Below the pieces are notes generated by a model that worked only from the letters and a program-made list of their open reading frames with translations, searched no databases and was not told the origin of the DNA. Both the position numbers and the translations under genes were made by a program. Below, one piece after another: positions 24,826 to 36,756 of a DNA stretch of 36,756 nucleotides. The first letter of the stretch is position 1; the number at the start of each line of letters is the position of its first letter. The DNA comes from a virus. The DNA is taken from the IMG/VR virus record IMGVR_UViG_3300031787_000391, positions 1-36,756 of that record. One strand, 5' to 3'.

Positions 24826-24831
24826 AAGAAA

Positions 24832-24859
24832 GCCCCGGTCGATACCAGGGCCGCTTTTT
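24832..24859. terminator. Bidirectional terminator between converging operons
   Basis: GCCC C GGT, loop CGAT, ACC A GGGC (one C-A mismatch) forms a hairpin at 24832-24851, followed on the plus strand by TTTTT (24855-24859). On the minus strand the same stem is followed by CTTTCTTTT. It sits between the stop of the secreted-protein gene and the stop of the endolysin gene, so it ends both transcripts. Confidence 0.75.
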
Positions 24860-24875
24860 CCATTATGAGAAACAC

Positions 24876-25292
24876 CTATATTTTTGAAAGTTGAAAGTGC
24901 ATTCCGTCTTTACGTTGCCAGGTACCGCCCCAGTCGAAACCTGCATCTGTGAAGCATTTCACAAAGCCAGCCGACAGCTTGGGTGTTTGGTTCAGACCAT
25001 TCTCAAAAGCGTTTACGTCGATGGCGATACCCCAGCTGTGCAGTGACAGGGAAGCCAACCCTCGTTTTTTACGGATGTTAAAACAGCCGTCCCAGGTCTT
25101 CAGCTCAGTGACAAACCCCCGGCTGATTAGGTTACGAAATGCAGCTGTAAGCGGCGCAACCATATCCCGGTTGCAGTAGATCCGCTTGGGTATCACTCCA
25201 ATCTCCAGTTCTGCCGGAACATCCCACAGCACCATTGTTTTCTGGGCTTGCGGATCTCCGTATTTTTTTAATGCTTGTGCTGATGTTACCAT
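24876..25292 (-). CDS. Endolysin, M15-type peptidoglycan peptidase
   Basis: A 138-residue zinc L,D/D,D-carboxypeptidase-like protein (Peptidase_M15_4/VanY group). Metal ligands are H85 and D92 in SLHSWGIAIDVNAF and H132 in KDGMHFQLSK. The glutamate usually preceding the last histidine is replaced by DGM. No signal peptide or cell-wall-binding domain, so it needs holin-mediated release. It is the last gene of the lysis module and ends 17 bp from a terminator. It starts 2 bp after the GNAT gene. Endolysin role is supported by the neighbouring holin and spanin candidates. Confidence 0.9.
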   Translation of the reverse strand: MVTSAQALKKYGDPQAQKTMVLWDVPAELEIGVIPKRIYCNRDMVAPLTAAFRNLISRGFVTELKTWDGCFNIRKKRGLASLSLHSWGIAIDVNAFENGLNQTPKLSAGFVKCFTDAGFDWGGTWQRKDGMHFQLSKI

Positions 25293-25294
25293 TG

Positions 25295-25723
25295 CTAAAA
25301 GTTTAATTTTTTAAAATATAATACATCGGCCCCCGCCCATTTATAAGAAGGTTCGTAAAGCCGAAACCCTTTACTTATAAGTGAATTTGCAGAGGCGTAA
25401 TTGTTAGCGAGTGTGTACGTTATAACCGCGCAGCATTCTTTTGCAGCACGTAAGCGCAAATCAATCATTTTCTTTTGTAGTCCCTTTCCACGGTACGGCT
25501 TATGCACCCAGGCACGAACGAAAATGCAGATATTATCAGAGGAATAAAGACAGCCGCAATAGGCAATAATTTTGTTTTTATCAACCAGCACCCACCAGTC
25601 ACGGTTATCTTTGAACTCATTGCCGCAGCCATAAAATACTTCATTGTCGAGATCCATCAAGCGGCGGTACAGCCCATCGTTGATAACCCTACCTTGACAA
25701 AATATTTTACGGAAGCGTACCAT
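25295..25723 (-). CDS. GNAT-family N-acetyltransferase
   Basis: A 142-residue single-domain GNAT protein. The acetyl-CoA loop is VHKPYRGKGLQKKMIDLRLR (R/Q-x-x-G-x-G/A motif as RGKGLQ). The following segment is ITYTLANNYASANSLISKGF, with the typical N..S...L...GF of motif B. The N-terminal domain has WWVLVDKNKIIAYCGCLY. It should transfer an acetyl group to an amine on an unknown protein or small molecule. Its position between a phosphoesterase and the endolysin is unusual. Modification of host proteins late in infection, or of a toxin or defence protein, is possible but unproven. Confidence 0.82.
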   Translation of the reverse strand: MVRFRKIFCQGRVINDGLYRRLMDLDNEVFYGCGNEFKDNRDWWVLVDKNKIIAYCGCLYSSDNICIFVRAWVHKPYRGKGLQKKMIDLRLRAAKECCAVITYTLANNYASANSLISKGFRLYEPSYKWAGADVLYFKKLNF

Positions 25724-25725
25724 GA

Positions 25726-26610
25726 TTAGCAGATGTCGAGTGGCTGATTTGTTTTTATTTTCACCTCTGCACTTATTTGGCTGGTGAGCTTATCCCTCAA
25801 GCAGTGAAGCGTCAAAAAATTACCTCCCAAAGGTTTTGGCGGCGCTCCTCTTTCCACGTGCCAGCCGTTCTTGGTGTATTCCTGTTTATAAGTGGAAGAA
25901 CGCAGCAGTATTACTGATCTGATTTTTGGCTTTTGCGAATTAGGGTGCTCATCAAAATAATGGGCCATCACTTCCCCTGCATTCTTTTCATGGATGTGGC
26001 CCATGGAAATACAGTCAGCACCTTCCACAACCATCATTTCCCGGCTGAACTCAATCTGCCCCCTGGTCACAGGACCACCGCCGCCGGACCCATGCTTAAA
26101 ATACAGTTTGTATGCCCATCGCTGCGTTTTGCTTTGGTGTATCCGGAAAATAACCCATCCGTGGTATCCCATTACCGGTATATTACCTCCAAGCTCACCG
26201 GCAAACCTTTCCAGCACATTTGTCTCCAGCCGGTTTAAAATATTTGATTCGTGGTTGCCTTTACCGATACAGACAATGTTATTTCGGTAGGGCTTGTAAA
26301 AAGACGCAGCGTCTGAAATTACTGCGTCCAGGTAGTTGCTTACGTTATGCTCCGGCCGGATGTCGGCTTTATTTCTGCGTGGATCATATTTACCCTGCAT
26401 AAAGCAGAAAGTGTCTCCCGGCAGAATTATAGCGGCGTTCAGTTTTTTCGCTTCTTCCAGATCCCTTTTTAAAAGATCTCGTCGGCATTTTGGGTTGTCC
26501 CAGTGATGGTCAGGTGAAATGAAAAGGTGAAACTCCCGTTCGTCTGATTTGAGGTAGACGTTTACTATAACGGTCATGCCGTTGATCTTCTCAGCTTTGA
26601 ACTCTGCCAT
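25726..26610 (-). CDS. Calcineurin-like metallophosphoesterase
   Basis: A 294-residue protein with the metallophosphoesterase motif series. DxH is in SPDHHWDNP (D34, H36), GD in ILPGDTFCF (D66), GNHE in GKGNHESN (118-121) and GHIH in SMGHIHEKN. A glycine-rich loop FKHGSGGGG lies before the last motif and holds the second metal-binding His. It probably uses two metals to cleave phosphomonoesters or diesters. It follows the metzincin lipoprotein gene and precedes the GNAT gene. It could process nucleic acid or cyclic-nucleotide signals (for example to counter host defence), but no substrate signature is visible. Confidence 0.87.
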   Translation of the reverse strand: MAEFKAEKINGMTVIVNVYLKSDEREFHLFISPDHHWDNPKCRRDLLKRDLEEAKKLNAAIILPGDTFCFMQGKYDPRRNKADIRPEHNVSNYLDAVISDAASFYKPYRNNIVCIGKGNHESNILNRLETNVLERFAGELGGNIPVMGYHGWVIFRIHQSKTQRWAYKLYFKHGSGGGGPVTRGQIEFSREMMVVEGADCISMGHIHEKNAGEVMAHYFDEHPNSQKPKIRSVILLRSSTYKQEYTKNGWHVERGAPPKPLGGNFLTLHCLRDKLTSQISAEVKIKTNQPLDIC

Positions 26611-26679: not shown

Positions 26680-27573
26680 TCATTGCAAGTAAATACGCAT
26701 TACCGAGGTGTCGTTCTGAATATTACAAAAGCTATTTGGCCCCACCCACCAAAGACCGATCTTCCCGTAACTCACCCCCATAATCGGGGCAGTCGGAAAA
26801 CCCGGATTGTTATTGTACTCTGTGAACGTAGTGCCGCAAATAGATTGGTGATAAAGGTTAGCAGTATGGCCGAACTCATGGCTCCCCACCCACCGGATGT
26901 TAGATACATTGTAGGCCATGTTCTTTGTGAACGTAAAGCAGGGAACCTCTAAACCCCATTTGATACAACCGATGTACGCAACCCCTCCGGCTGCACCATA
27001 GAACTGACTTTGCGTAAATATTTGCCGCTGGCGGTAATTAGGTGCATACTGAAAGTATATACTGCTGTCCCTTGTAATGGTAACGGGAAAGTTTTTATAG
27101 TCTTTCCTTATACTGTCAATTATACTCTGTCTTTCAGATGCCGTTAAACCGCTTTCTGTGGCGTAAAATTCGGCTCCATTGTTCCAGTAAGGTGTTGATA
27201 CCGTCTGTCCGTCAAAATCCAAGAAAAAGCAATACAGACGCTTTGTGGTTGTATCTAAACCGGGATCAATTGGAGGAGGCGGCGGTGCAGTACATGGTTT
27301 CGTTCCGCAGGCTAAAGGCTCTCCAGTGTATGGGCATACCTCCTGCCCTGGGTTAAATACAAACGGGCAGTTATCTTCTGAATTTTTAATACCGTCCCCG
27401 TCTGAGTCGGTTCTACCGGGAGGGTTTCCCCGCCTTGCCTGAACGATCTGATCTTGTGTAAATCGGGCAATGGTGTTCTTTTCTTCTTTATAGCAAACTT
27501 CCGGCAGGTCTGTTTTAACGGTAGCGACCTTGCCACATGATAGTAAAAACAGAACCACCCAAAGTTTACGCAT
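26680..27573 (-). CDS. Lipoprotein metzincin-type zinc protease with calcium repeat
   Basis: A 297-residue exported protein. The signal segment MRKLWVVLFLLSC has a lipobox with Cys13, so it should be lipid-anchored. Residues 55-70 (TDSDGDGIKNSEDNCP) are a thrombospondin type-3-like calcium-binding repeat, followed by a Cys/Pro-rich linker (PPPPP near 97-101). The C-terminal domain carries HEFGHTANLYH (H232, E233, H236, H242), the HExxHxxxxxH zinc motif of metzincins, with a candidate Met-turn PIMG (M265). Asn replaces the usual Gly at position 239. It is probably a secreted protease. It sits between the spanin-like and phosphoesterase genes. The target is unknown. Confidence 0.85.
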   Translation of the reverse strand: MRKLWVVLFLLSCGKVATVKTDLPEVCYKEEKNTIARFTQDQIVQARRGNPPGRTDSDGDGIKNSEDNCPFVFNPGQEVCPYTGEPLACGTKPCTAPPPPPIDPGLDTTTKRLYCFFLDFDGQTVSTPYWNNGAEFYATESGLTASERQSIIDSIRKDYKNFPVTITRDSSIYFQYAPNYRQRQIFTQSQFYGAAGGVAYIGCIKWGLEVPCFTFTKNMAYNVSNIRWVGSHEFGHTANLYHQSICGTTFTEYNNNPGFPTAPIMGVSYGKIGLWWVGPNSFCNIQNDTSVMRIYLQ

Positions 27574-27579
27574 CAGATA

Positions 27580-28188
27580 TTATTTAGTGATGAGAAAAAG
27601 TGTTGTCGCTCCTACTGCAGCTGCACCCAGTATCCGGTTCCATCGGCCTCTCCTTTCGGCTTTGCGTTCTGCCTTCGCCAGCTGTTTGCTTTGTTTTTCG
27701 TACAGTACCTGCATCCCTTCGTAGTTAGCTGTGAGGTTGCTGATCTTGACCTTGAGCGTTTCTATCTCAGCGTGCTGACCGGTGATGATCCGTTCCTGTG
27801 ATACGATTATATCGCCTTGAGCCTGCCTCATGTCCTCACTCATGCTCACGTAGCTGTCATGCGCTTCCTGCAGGTCGTTAAAGGCGCTGCGCAGGCTGTC
27901 GCAGTTGTTGGTCTGCTGGCCTCTTGCAATCGCTGCCTGGGCTTTTGCTTTGGGTTTTTGCTTTGCCTGGCGCAGGCTGTCCACCTGCTTTGTCAACACG
28001 AGGATCTGCACGCTGTCCTTGCTGCGTTGGTTCCGCAGGTGGTCCAGTGCAGGAGTGTTGATGTCAACGATGGCCGGAACCGGTGGCGCCACAGGCTTGC
28101 GGCAGTTGCAGTTGCATTTCCCCAGCAGCAGCGCTGTCACTACAATAGCAGCCATCACATAAGAGGCGTATTTCAATTTATTGTTCAT
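27580..28188 (-). CDS. Spanin-like membrane coiled-coil protein
   Basis: A 202-residue protein with an N-terminal membrane segment (YASYVMAAIVVTALLLG) followed by a Cys-rich patch (KCNCNCRKP), a long coiled coil from about 45 to 170 (DHLRNQRSKDSVQILVLTKQ, then NLTANYEGMQVLYEKQSKQL), and a second hydrophobic stretch at the C-terminus (ILGAAAVGATTLFLI). Two ends in membranes joined by a coiled coil is the layout of spanins, which fuse inner and outer membranes in the last lysis step. The lipobox is not canonical, so lipidation is uncertain. It overlaps the holin-like gene upstream. Confidence 0.55.
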   Translation of the reverse strand: MNNKLKYASYVMAAIVVTALLLGKCNCNCRKPVAPPVPAIVDINTPALDHLRNQRSKDSVQILVLTKQVDSLRQAKQKPKAKAQAAIARGQQTNNCDSLRSAFNDLQEAHDSYVSMSEDMRQAQGDIIVSQERIITGQHAEIETLKVKISNLTANYEGMQVLYEKQSKQLAKAERKAERRGRWNRILGAAAVGATTLFLITK

Positions 28189-28438
28189 CTTGCTTTGGTT
28201 TTTCAGATTCTACTTTCCCGCCTTTCCACAGTGCGATGATCTGGCCAACAGTAGCCACACCGCTCATAAGCAGTACACACACGAACAGCCATTTCATGGT
28301 TTCGGTGATGTATTCCTTATAATGCAGTGTGATGTAAGAAACCACGAATATGGCGGCTATCGCCCACAGGAAGCTGATAACACGCTTATGGCTGATTTTT
28401 CCACCTTCACTGAACATAGAGATTAAAAATTCTTTCAT
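28178..28438 (-). CDS. Holin-like two-span membrane protein
   Basis: An 86-residue protein with two membrane helices, about 20-38 (VISFLWAIAAIFVVSYIT) and 50-70 (LFVCVLLMSGVATVGQIIAL), and a charged C-terminus (KPKQDEQ). Size, topology and position fit a class II holin or a holin partner. It is coupled by ATGA overlap to the XhlA-like gene and overlaps the spanin-like gene. The opening MKEFLISMFSEGGKISHKRV resembles phage proteins annotated as holin-associated. No function is proven by sequence alone. Confidence 0.68.
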   Translation of the reverse strand: MKEFLISMFSEGGKISHKRVISFLWAIAAIFVVSYITLHYKEYITETMKWLFVCVLLMSGVATVGQIIALWKGGKVESEKPKQDEQ

Positions 28439-28780: not shown

Positions 28781-29188
28781 TCAAATCCATTTTTTCCAAT
28801 ACAGCCAGCCGAATGCACGCACCACCAGGTAGCGCACGTAATTGTCGAAATAATTCGTGTTCGTTATCATCATCCAGCGCAGGTATTCGGCATCCACTTC
28901 TGCCCGGCTTAACATGTGCCGCTCCTGATGTACGTACAGGTAATCATGGATCAGCGTGGCCAGCAGTCCGTCGTTGAACGGCCGCACAATGCTCCACAGC
29001 CATTTTGGTACGCTGGCCATGTCGTAGCAGTACCCGGCGGGAATAATTATCACATCGCCGTTACTCAACTGCACTTCCACGTCCTTCACCAGCCGCCAGT
29101 ATTTCGGCGACTTCGTGCTGTATATGTACGACTGAACGATAACGTTGTCGCTTAGCAGTTCCTGTATGACGTTTGCGAGGTGTATCAT
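28781..29188 (-). CDS. DUF1353 family protein
   Basis: A 135-residue protein with the DUF1353 pattern: VIIIPAGYCYDMASVPKWLW followed by ATLIHDYLYVHQ (the I-P-A-G-Y-x-x-D-x-A-S-V-P and HDxLY motifs). A C-terminal hydrophobic/aromatic segment is YLVVRAFGWLYWKKWI. DUF1353 is common in phage structural or lysis regions. Its biochemical role is not known to me. The conserved His-Asp suggests an enzyme or metal site. It overlaps the upstream membrane protein by ATGA. Confidence 0.85.
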   Translation of the reverse strand: MIHLANVIQELLSDNVIVQSYIYSTKSPKYWRLVKDVEVQLSNGDVIIIPAGYCYDMASVPKWLWSIVRPFNDGLLATLIHDYLYVHQERHMLSRAEVDAEYLRWMMITNTNYFDNYVRYLVVRAFGWLYWKKWI

Positions 29189-31307: not shown

Positions 31308-32708
31308 TTAATAGTTGTTGAATAAATAAAGTTTGCCGCCCACACCATCGCCGCCGCCACCTGTTGCAAAGGGCGTTATGAGCCAATCCGCATCTGCAGC
31401 GGGCGCATCCACCTTTGCCATGATACGGCTGCCTATTCCTACGGACACGCCTCCCAGCGTTCCGGCAGTGGTAATGTACCATGTGTTGCCCCTTTCGATA
31501 GCCCCGGCTGTTCCGGTTCCCCCGGTGGTGGGGAAGGTGTTGCCGCTGGCGTTGTAGCCGCCACGGTCGGAGATGCGAGTCGAAAGGGATGGCAAATCAC
31601 TTAGCATGGCAAACGTGCCGTCTTTATTCGGGAAGTATTGCTGTCGTGTGGCTGTTAAATTCTCTTTTCTTAAAACAACGGTCTGGCTGTTGCCGTTTGG
31701 AAAATAAAACACGTACCCGCCACGACCTGTTCGGGCTATACCCAACTCGCCATCAAGGTCACTGATTACGCTGCTATAAGTACCGTTAATCGGGTCATAC
31801 AGAAAAAGCGAACCTAATTTTGCGGCAAGCTGGCTTTCGTTTCCCGCGGAGAGTGTATCGTCAAGCGTTTGGGCTGGTACAAAAATCAGATCATCCGTTC
31901 CCAGCGTAGCCGTATTGCCGGCATCTGCACTAACCGCTGTGGGGCCTTCCGGGCCTTGTGGACCTTGTGCACCTGCTGGCCCCTGCGGACCTGTATCTCC
32001 GGTGTCCCCCTTCACCCCTTGCGGCCCCTGTGGGCCTGTGGCACCGGTTGCGCCCGTTGCACCTGCCGGACCTTGTAAACCCTGCAGCTGTCCCTGCAGC
32101 GCCCATACACCGTTGATCTTTTTGTAATAATCGTTAGGCGCCTCTGTGTCGATATACAAATCGCCCTCGTTTCCGGTGGCCTGCAGCGGCTCGCCTGCAC
32201 CGGTGAAAATGTTGGTTTTGTTGAAAAAGCCGGGTACTCCATTCGGCCCTACGGGCTCAGAAGGGTACATGACATCTTCCATCGGAGCTTGGCAGATGTT
32301 GTATAAAAACGGCAATTTGAGTTCTACGGTAAACGTAACCCCCGCAAGCACATCTTCAAAGCGTTCACTGAAATAAGTAAACTGGCTCCTCTTTTCAAAC
32401 GCCCACGGGTTTTTATCCCAACTGAACAGAGCGATCAAGTCGTCCGCTATCTGCTCCATATCGCTCTGCACTTCTAAATCATTACTTTGTTCAGGGTGGT
32501 GCATTGTGGCCACCGTCACTACATAGCGGTAAAAACGGGATTTTCCTTCTCGGGTAGAACTATCAAACGTAAACCACACGGCGGGGTACTGCACGTCCTT
32601 ATAGTCGTAATGCAGGAAATCTTCAGCCTTTGCCTCCCTTGCTGTTGCCACCATTTTGTGAGCTCCGGCGATCTGCACCAGCAGGTTTGTGATCTGTGTT
32701 AACGTCAT
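31308..32708 (-). CDS. Tail-terminator-like domain fused to collagen-like fibre
   Basis: A 466-residue chimeric protein. Residues 1-140 look like a tail-terminator or completion domain ([46 protein letters not shown]). Residues 145-205 hold a fibre-type segment ([20 protein letters not shown]). Residues 210-257 are 16 uninterrupted Gly-X-Y triplets ([20 protein letters not shown]), i.e. a collagen-like triple helix. The rest is a beta/Gly-rich fibre head. A tail terminator normally ends the tube; fusion to a trimeric collagen fibre would place fibres at the head-proximal end of the tail, if the first domain keeps that role. The collagen part is certain; the terminator assignment is moderate. 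Confidence 0.78.
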
Positions 32709-36296: not shown

Positions 36297-36756
36297 TTAC
36301 GCTTCAAATTTCACCACCTCGTCCATGAAGGCGAACTGCACACCGATCTTGAACGCAGTGTGAAACTTCACGTTCATGTCGTCGTTGCTGTACCACATCT
36401 GGAAGGCTTCTTCCTCGTTCTGCAGGTCAGTACCCAGGAAGATGTTGGCCATGCGGAAAGCATAGATCGCATCAGTTCCGTCGAGGCCATGTACCGGAAT
36501 CACTTTGTAAGAAGTGCCGGGAACAGTGAACTCAGGCAGGTTCTGATCGTCGCTGTTCACTCCGGGGGCGAAGTGGAACAGGTTGGCGTCCACATAAGCA
36601 TCAACCAACAGGTTGTATGTGTCGTATCCGCAGAAGATCCGCACATCGCTCTTGCCCTGGATCTTGGCAGGGAGTGCTTTGATCACTGCTTTCACAGCGT
36701 TCTTTGCGATGGTGGAAGAGTTGATCGCAGTGGCCGGTGTACCGTAGTATCCGGTA
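36297..36756 (-). CDS. Major capsid protein, C-terminal part (cut by window end)
   Basis: The open frame enters from the window end and stops at 36297. It reads GYYGTPATAINSSTIAKNAV, then KALPAKIQGKSDVRIFCGYD, ANLFHFAPGV, PGTSYKVIPVHGLDGTDAIY and ends IGVQFAFMDEVVKFEA. This matches the last ~150 residues of Bacteroidota phage capsid proteins (KSDVxIFxGxD, then N-L-F-H, GTxxKV, then D-E-V-V-x-F). The N-terminal part is at 1-233, so the gene wraps round the ends. A weak hairpin and a tail-tube candidate follow. Confidence 0.85.
   Translation of the reverse strand, partial: TGYYGTPATAINSSTIAKNAVKAVIKALPAKIQGKSDVRIFCGYDTYNLLVDAYVDANLFHFAPGVNSDDQNLPEFTVPGTSYKVIPVHGLDGTDAIYAFRMANIFLGTDLQNEEEAFQMWYSNDDMNVKFHTAFKIGVQFAFMDEVVKFEA

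Follow-up and report, generated by a model that had tools for sequence, protein, structure and literature searches.

A phage-encoded lipoprotein with a metzincin zinc site and a TSP3 repeat in a late operon that ends with an endolysin gene

The late operon of a circular genome, from a phage of Bacteroidota, encodes a predicted lipoprotein in which a TSP3 calcium repeat precedes a metzincin domain. This genome is the window, by which we mean the whole stretch of 36,756 nucleotides analyzed here (positions 1–36,756 of IMG/VR record IMGVR_UViG_3300031787_000391). Our computations establish the architecture of the protein, its metzincin fold and conserved catalytic residues, its lysis-operon context, its recurrence in unrelated phages, and purifying selection on its gene. 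An earlier note on this DNA, made from the sequence alone, had described a phage lipoprotein with a metzincin zinc site and a TSP3-like repeat, and this description is borne out by the sequence, a structure model, and synteny. Tentatively, and somewhat short of calling it probable, we propose that the protein is a late, outer-membrane-anchored protease acting on host envelope or surface proteins to aid the release of progeny.

The ORF of 297 residues consists of a signal peptide, a lipobox with Cys13, a single intact TSP3 repeat (residues 55–77), and a C-terminal metzincin domain (residues 113–297) (Table 1). The N terminus, MRKLWVVLFLLSC, is a 12-residue signal peptide with a lipobox, which makes Cys13 the likely site of acylation. 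A predicted signal peptide ending in a lipobox cysteine marks the product as a putative bacterial lipoprotein. The signal peptide of the window protein is short, and the Leu at lipobox position −2 is not the commonest residue there. A lipobox is also found in the aligned full-length relatives, with variants LASC, FSC, ITC, and similar, and Cys13 is conserved among those of the lipoprotein form. The ORF encodes an enzyme that is folded and has no second membrane segment, unlike an o-spanin or u-spanin, which is a short, Pro-rich or coiled-coil lipoprotein that reaches the inner membrane. It has no PHROG match.

The TSP3-like calcium repeat of the earlier note holds for one copy, which scores 27.5 bits against a cut-off of 25 (Pfam TSP_3) and contains an Asp-rich calcium loop with the DNC/NP motif. 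By alignment, the relatives retain two such repeats (DSDKDGIGDAC in the second), whereas in the window only the first is intact and the second is degenerate. Between the anchor and the TSP3 repeat lies a Cys motif with the consensus CDFxxGxYNxxxR. In the scan of the loci, this motif occurs only in lipoprotein metzincins, L097 and L105 included, if a single chance match in L020 is set aside. The motif might serve as a latency switch or form a disulfide. A cysteine-switch mechanism of latency involving the conserved Cys is possible but speculative, because the model has no confidence in that segment.

The AlphaFold2 model built from an alignment of 59 relatives has a mean pLDDT of 83.7, rising to about 95 across the catalytic core and falling below 50 at residues 20–28; a single-sequence model (pLDDT 31) was discarded. 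Its catalytic domain matches the snake-venom adamalysin BaP1 (PDB 2w12; Z 12.6, rmsd 2.8 over 141 residues) as well as many adamalysins, ADAMs, and archaemetzincins in the PDB, and Foldseek gave a best E of 9e-5 for this domain. The comparison with metzincin structures, which the earlier note had named as a check on its reading, came out in its favor. A sequence profile built from the family independently matches proteins of known structure, namely adamalysins, serralysins, and MMPs (best E 4e-4). The Reprolysin_3 profile of Pfam scores the window protein at 20.5 bits against a cut-off of 22.4, and some relatives exceed that cut-off.

The candidate Met-turn of the earlier note proved to be the motif APIMG, in which M265 is invariant, as are the three histidines and the glutamate of the zinc site. 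Position 7 of HExxHxxGxxH is Gly in about 90% or more of the family and Asn in the window; the Asn variant is shared by the Synechococcus phage S-CRM01, L071, and L113. Because Pfam matches, fold, and conservation over 59 sequences agree, a chance origin of the motifs is ruled out. With its zinc site, Met-turn, and modeled fold, the domain appears to be a genuine member of the metzincin clan, and zinc-dependent proteolysis would follow from the fold and the invariant site.

The window genome is circular, since a major-capsid-like ORF of 230 aa reads in frame over the record ends (1–233 and 36297–36756). On the minus strand, its late genes extend from the portal through the tail fiber to the M15 endolysin, with gaps of 0–70 nt from the fiber on. 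The metzincin gene lies within this tightly packed late operon, which ends with the endolysin and a terminator-like site, supporting the placement in a lysis module that the earlier note had given. That label is fair and yet imperfect, because in myovirus-type contigs the gene lies between DUF1353 and the tail sheath, without an adjoining endolysin. A promoter scan of the window found no excess over shuffles. Elsewhere in the window, we notice two genes that lie between those of the endolysin and the metzincin (25295–26610), one for a GNAT acetyltransferase and one for a metallophosphatase-like protein (phrog_7339), a collagen-like repeat in the tail fiber (31308–32708), and a glycosyltransferase (phrog_7162; 852–1865) amid structural genes.

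Table 1. Features of the window and of related phage contigs
Feature	Position	Strand	Basis or remark
Lipid-anchored metzincin ORF (predicted anchor), 297 aa	26680..27573	(-)	Coordinates and strand confirmed exact
Lipobox LLSC (residues 10–13), predicted acylated Cys13, then G-K (Lys at +3)	27535..27546	(-)	Sequence
N-terminal Cys motif, CYKEEKNTIAR in the window	27466..27495	(-)	Motif scan; model of low confidence here
Intact TSP3 calcium repeat DSDGDGIKNSEDNCPFVFNPGQ (residues 55–77)	27343..27411	(-)	Pfam PF02412, E 2.6e-6
Degenerate second TSP3 repeat (residues 78–94), Asp residues lost	27292..27342	(-)	Alignment to relatives
Metzincin catalytic domain (residues 113–297)	26683..27237	(-)	AF2 pLDDT about 95 over core; Z 12.6 to 2w12
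Zinc site HEFGHTANLYH (residues 232–242)	26848..26880	(-)	H232, E233, H236, H242 invariant in 59 sequences
Met-turn APIMG (residues 262–266)	26776..26790	(-)	M265 invariant in 59 sequences
Coiled-coil spanin-like ORF (topology only): hydrophobic N terminus with Cys, C-terminal hydrophobic segment	27580..28188	(-)	Sequence; 6 nt upstream of metzincin
Small membrane protein, holin candidate	28178..28438	(-)	phrog_1322 'membrane protein', E 4e-5
Coiled-coil protein with C-terminal hydrophobic segment	28435..28818	(-)	Cluster c61; relatives near metzincin in L010, L109
DUF1353 protein	28781..29188	(-)	PF07087 E 6e-18; phrog_1158 E 2e-25; cluster c2; near metzincin in most phages
M15 peptidase endolysin, last late-operon gene	24876..25292	(-)	PF13539 E 3e-15; endolysin PHROGs
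Terminator-like hairpin after endolysin	24831..24852	(-)	Consensus match; no excess over shuffles
T9SS-tailed phage metzincins (Sec signal and Por_Secre_tail)	L006:11398-12837; L008:11400-12839; L018:2067-3680		Each after a small secreted protein of about 144 aa

A single-sequence search of viral contigs returned no relatives, and an alignment query was required to find them. The alignment-based scan of IMG/VR revealed full-length relatives (L004–L017 and L102–L109) in about 15 distinct phage lineages, so the search for phage homologs that the earlier note had suggested was productive. These relatives keep the same order of lipobox, Cys motif, TSP3, and metzincin, share 36–46% identity with the window protein, and lie on contigs of 5 to 287 kb. 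Among 50,697 records of annotated phages, tblastn with the window protein or L013 as query gave S-CRM01 as the sole credible relative; a match in Pseudomonas phage D6 (E 9) was disregarded. The lipoprotein metzincin is thus rare among annotated isolates and recurrent in metagenomic phages, and the view of the earlier note that it is unusual in a phage stands for the former and not for the latter. A lipoprotein metallopeptidase has already been reported in Maribacter phage Molly (PMC8776804). Close pairs have dN/dS values of 0.10–0.22 (NG86) and, for pairs where it was computable, 0.07–0.15 (YN00), and the phage gene is therefore under purifying selection.

The neighbors of the metzincin vary across lineages: DUF1353 is present in about 10 of the 15, a small two-segment membrane protein (cluster c1) also in about 10, and an M15 endolysin of the same family in 5. 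In L011 and L012, the gene directly downstream encodes a lipoprotein that has a coiled coil and ends in a membrane segment, a u-spanin-like layout. No obvious counterpart to the adjacent TIMP-like lipoprotein partner of the Listeria metzincin Mtz is conserved across the phages.

Among bacteria, the catalytic domain is widespread within the Bacteroidota and most of all in Chitinophagaceae, mostly in proteins of 530 residues; a type IX secretion tail is present in L025, the one such protein that was scanned. Among cellular proteins, the nearest relatives are lipoproteins encoded on the chromosomes of Chitinophagaceae of the Lacibacter group, namely two species of Lacibacter and two MAGs related to them (Lacibacter, UBA1931, UBA1953; L022–L024, L026). 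They have the same lipobox, Cys motif, TSP3, and metzincin, with about 36–41% identity over nearly the full length, and differ in occupying one conserved chromosomal locus without phage neighbors. Because identical flanking genes recur in all four, we ruled out that these loci are prophages.

The tree of the catalytic domain unites the lipoproteins of phages with the four chromosomal ones in one clade (97/90) without separating the two groups, and L020, L021, and L113 form a distant branch. The full-length tree places the phage copies on one side, apart from the chromosomal group, with weak separation (87/86). These trees fit, without proving it, a single acquisition from a Chitinophagaceae-like host that may have been followed by spread among phages. 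The nearest tree relative of the window is L103 (97/98), a myovirus-type contig otherwise sharing few genes with it; this pairing is uncertain because both are long branches.

In Capnocytophaga, the optimal signal for lipoprotein export to the surface is C-x-K-(D/E)2, and periplasm-facing lipoproteins have no highly conserved residue there (PMC5080379). In the window, Cys13 is followed by G-K, and the acidic pair is absent. We compared Chitinophagaceae sequences and found Lys at +3 in 14/15 phage metzincins, 17/19 SusD-sized lipoproteins taken from SusD loci, and 15/37 other lipoproteins taken from near the studied genes. The difference between phage metzincins and other lipoproteins has a Fisher p of 5e-4, from a comparison that sets mutually related phage copies against a small background. 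Surface display of the lipoprotein metzincin is therefore likely, because its Lys+3 pattern resembles that of SusD surface lipoproteins. Three phages (L006, L008, L018) also encode a metzincin paralog whose type IX sorting domain scores above the Pfam cut-off in L006 and below it in L008 and L018. We take this as an independent sign that surface delivery of the peptidase is useful to those phages. T9SS cargo encoded by a phage has been reported before, in Cryophage (PMC7468147).

We speculate that the protein works as follows. Sec would export the lipoprotein and Cys13 would be acylated, anchoring it in the host outer membrane, probably on the outer face. A calcium-stabilized, Pro-rich/TSP3 stalk may keep the adamalysin-like metzincin off the membrane. 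The metzincin would be catalytically competent and appear late, when the spanin-like protein, the M15 endolysin, and the holin candidates would also be made. As infection ends, it may degrade host envelope or surface proteins, whereupon the outer surface would open and cell debris or matrix would no longer hold the progeny. In this scheme, we infer zinc-dependent proteolysis, surface topology, timing, and substrate.

The evidence for a role in release comprises the fold and active site, the dN/dS values, the roughly 15 lineages, the recurring neighbors, the packed late operon that runs to the endolysin, Lys+3, and the T9SS paralogs. The same gene with the same neighbors in at least a dozen diverse phages suggests that it trims the host surface at release. 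A precedent exists in Listeria prophages: there, the gene downstream of holin-lysin encodes a metzincin that, together with its partner Tim, increases the release of virions about 5-fold (PMC8235301). Against this role, the neighborhood is not purely lytic, because the myovirus-type metzincin adjoins the tail sheath and not an endolysin, and the chemistry is not lysis-specific, because the same protein type is chromosomal in bacteria that are not being lysed. The short signal peptide, the Leu at −2, the Asn in the zinc motif, and the missing acidic pair after Lys+3 also count against it.

The main rival to release is that the surface-anchored protease removes phage receptors or surface proteins, preventing re-adsorption to infected cells or debris and excluding superinfection. 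We consider this somewhat unlikely, and the present data cannot separate it from release; the earlier note had raised both roles. The effect would be like that of phage T5 Llp, by cutting rather than plugging. Llp is, like the window protein, a phage lipoprotein at the outer membrane; it blocks the receptor FhuA, and exclusion proteins of its type also stop the loss of progeny on cell fragments (PMC9586334). The lipid anchor with its surface-like Lys+3, the T9SS-targeted paralogs in three phages, and the location of metzincin genes near tail fiber genes in many contigs would suit receptor clearance. However, Llp is small, non-enzymatic, and the product of an early gene (PMC9586334), whereas the metzincin lies in the late operon with lysis genes. 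In a wider version, Chitinophagaceae phages would share a mobile gene set that brings metzincins to the host outer surface via lipoprotein export and type IX secretion and removes receptors and surface proteins in the last stage of infection (enzymatic receptor destruction), with the Cys-containing N-terminal segment keeping the enzyme latent until lysis. This we regard as plainly unlikely.

The adjoining spanin-like gene in the window and the u-spanin-like lipoprotein of L011 and L012 raise another reading, in which the outer-membrane protease faces the periplasm and cuts tethers between the outer membrane and peptidoglycan, or processes a lysis protein into its mature form, for instance the spanin-like product of the neighboring gene. 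The Listeria metzincin does cleave its partner lipoprotein Tim (PMC8235301). However, the Lys+3 pattern is that of surface lipoproteins and most relatives have no adjacent spanin-like gene, and this reading seems to us quite improbable. The protease might also digest extracellular matrix or environmental protein, feeding the infected cell or freeing virions from biofilm. Matrix degradation was proposed by the authors of the Molly report (PMC8776804), and Bacteroidota secrete enzymes of this peptidase family through the T9SS; we find this reading very improbable, given that a nutrient gain late in infection would be of little use and that the gene sits among lysis genes.

Metzincins can act as virulence factors, and the earlier note had entertained lysogenic conversion or virulence from a prophage. 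This is hardly credible: the genome is circular, a search for tyrosine and serine integrases whose controls gave matches detected none in the window or in 8 related phage contigs, the gene is in the late operon, and the nearest hosts are environmental Chitinophagaceae. A role at entry, with the protein digesting surface proteins as part of the virion, is barely conceivable, because the signal peptide and lipobox direct the protein out of the cytoplasm, where virions assemble, even though the S-CRM01 relative lies between prohead genes gp21 and gp22 and several myovirus-type contigs have the gene just upstream of the tail sheath.

It is poorly understood how phages of Bacteroidota get out through an outer surface densely covered with lipoproteins and T9SS cargo, or how they clear it. 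A conserved, putatively late and lipid-anchored protease of many phages is a testable candidate for this surface-exit or clearing step. The metzincin may also be an enzymatic equivalent of lipoproteins that block receptors, such as T5 Llp, and it adds a phage protein family unmatched by PHROGs. In the open-access literature, we found no paper describing the window protein and no direct report of phage proteases in a spanin, superinfection, or Chitinophagaceae context.

Both a phage lipoprotein metallopeptidase and a lysis-linked metzincin have been reported, in Molly (PMC8776804) and Listeria (PMC8235301), respectively. The window protein is set apart by its TSP3 stalk, its peptidase branch, the Gram-negative lysis context, and its recurrence across phages. 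The zinc metallopeptidase of Maribacter phages Molly and Colly (PMC8776804) likewise combines, in a Bacteroidota phage, a lipoprotein with a zinc peptidase domain, and the Colly protein also appeared weakly in the fold search (E 0.09). By contrast, it has 199 aa, is annotated as a matrixin, shows about 10% identity, and has no TSP3 described, a comparison with the window made by description only. Listeria Mtz-Tim, of phage origin, resembles the window protein as a metzincin downstream of holin-lysin in prophages, whose active protease enhances phage lysis (PMC8235301). It differs in its Gram-positive host, in that the protease is secreted and Tim is the lipoprotein, and in that no TSP3 is mentioned.

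Two further groups share the catalytic domain. The T9SS-secreted metzincins of Chitinophagaceae and of the three phages above lack the lipid anchor and TSP3, carry a C-terminal sorting domain, and form a separate tree branch. SCRM01_042 of S-CRM01 and the proteins of L020, L021, and L113 belong to the same peptidase domain family in phages, without lipobox or TSP3 and with long C-terminal domains. In S-CRM01, this distant relative, which has no lipid anchor, occupies L002:3791-5701 between gp21 and gp22.

Around the phage metzincins we also notice some accompanying genes. A papain-like cysteine protease (PF00112) lies directly upstream in L004 (8969–9853). In L010, a GIY-YIG-like gene between endolysin and metzincin (1405–2061) resembles a homing endonuclease insertion. 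Cluster c36 (L005, L010, L107; e.g. L107:9144-9779) comprises secreted proteins of ~212 aa near the metzincin, whose C termini look like T9SS tails by eye, with no Pfam match.
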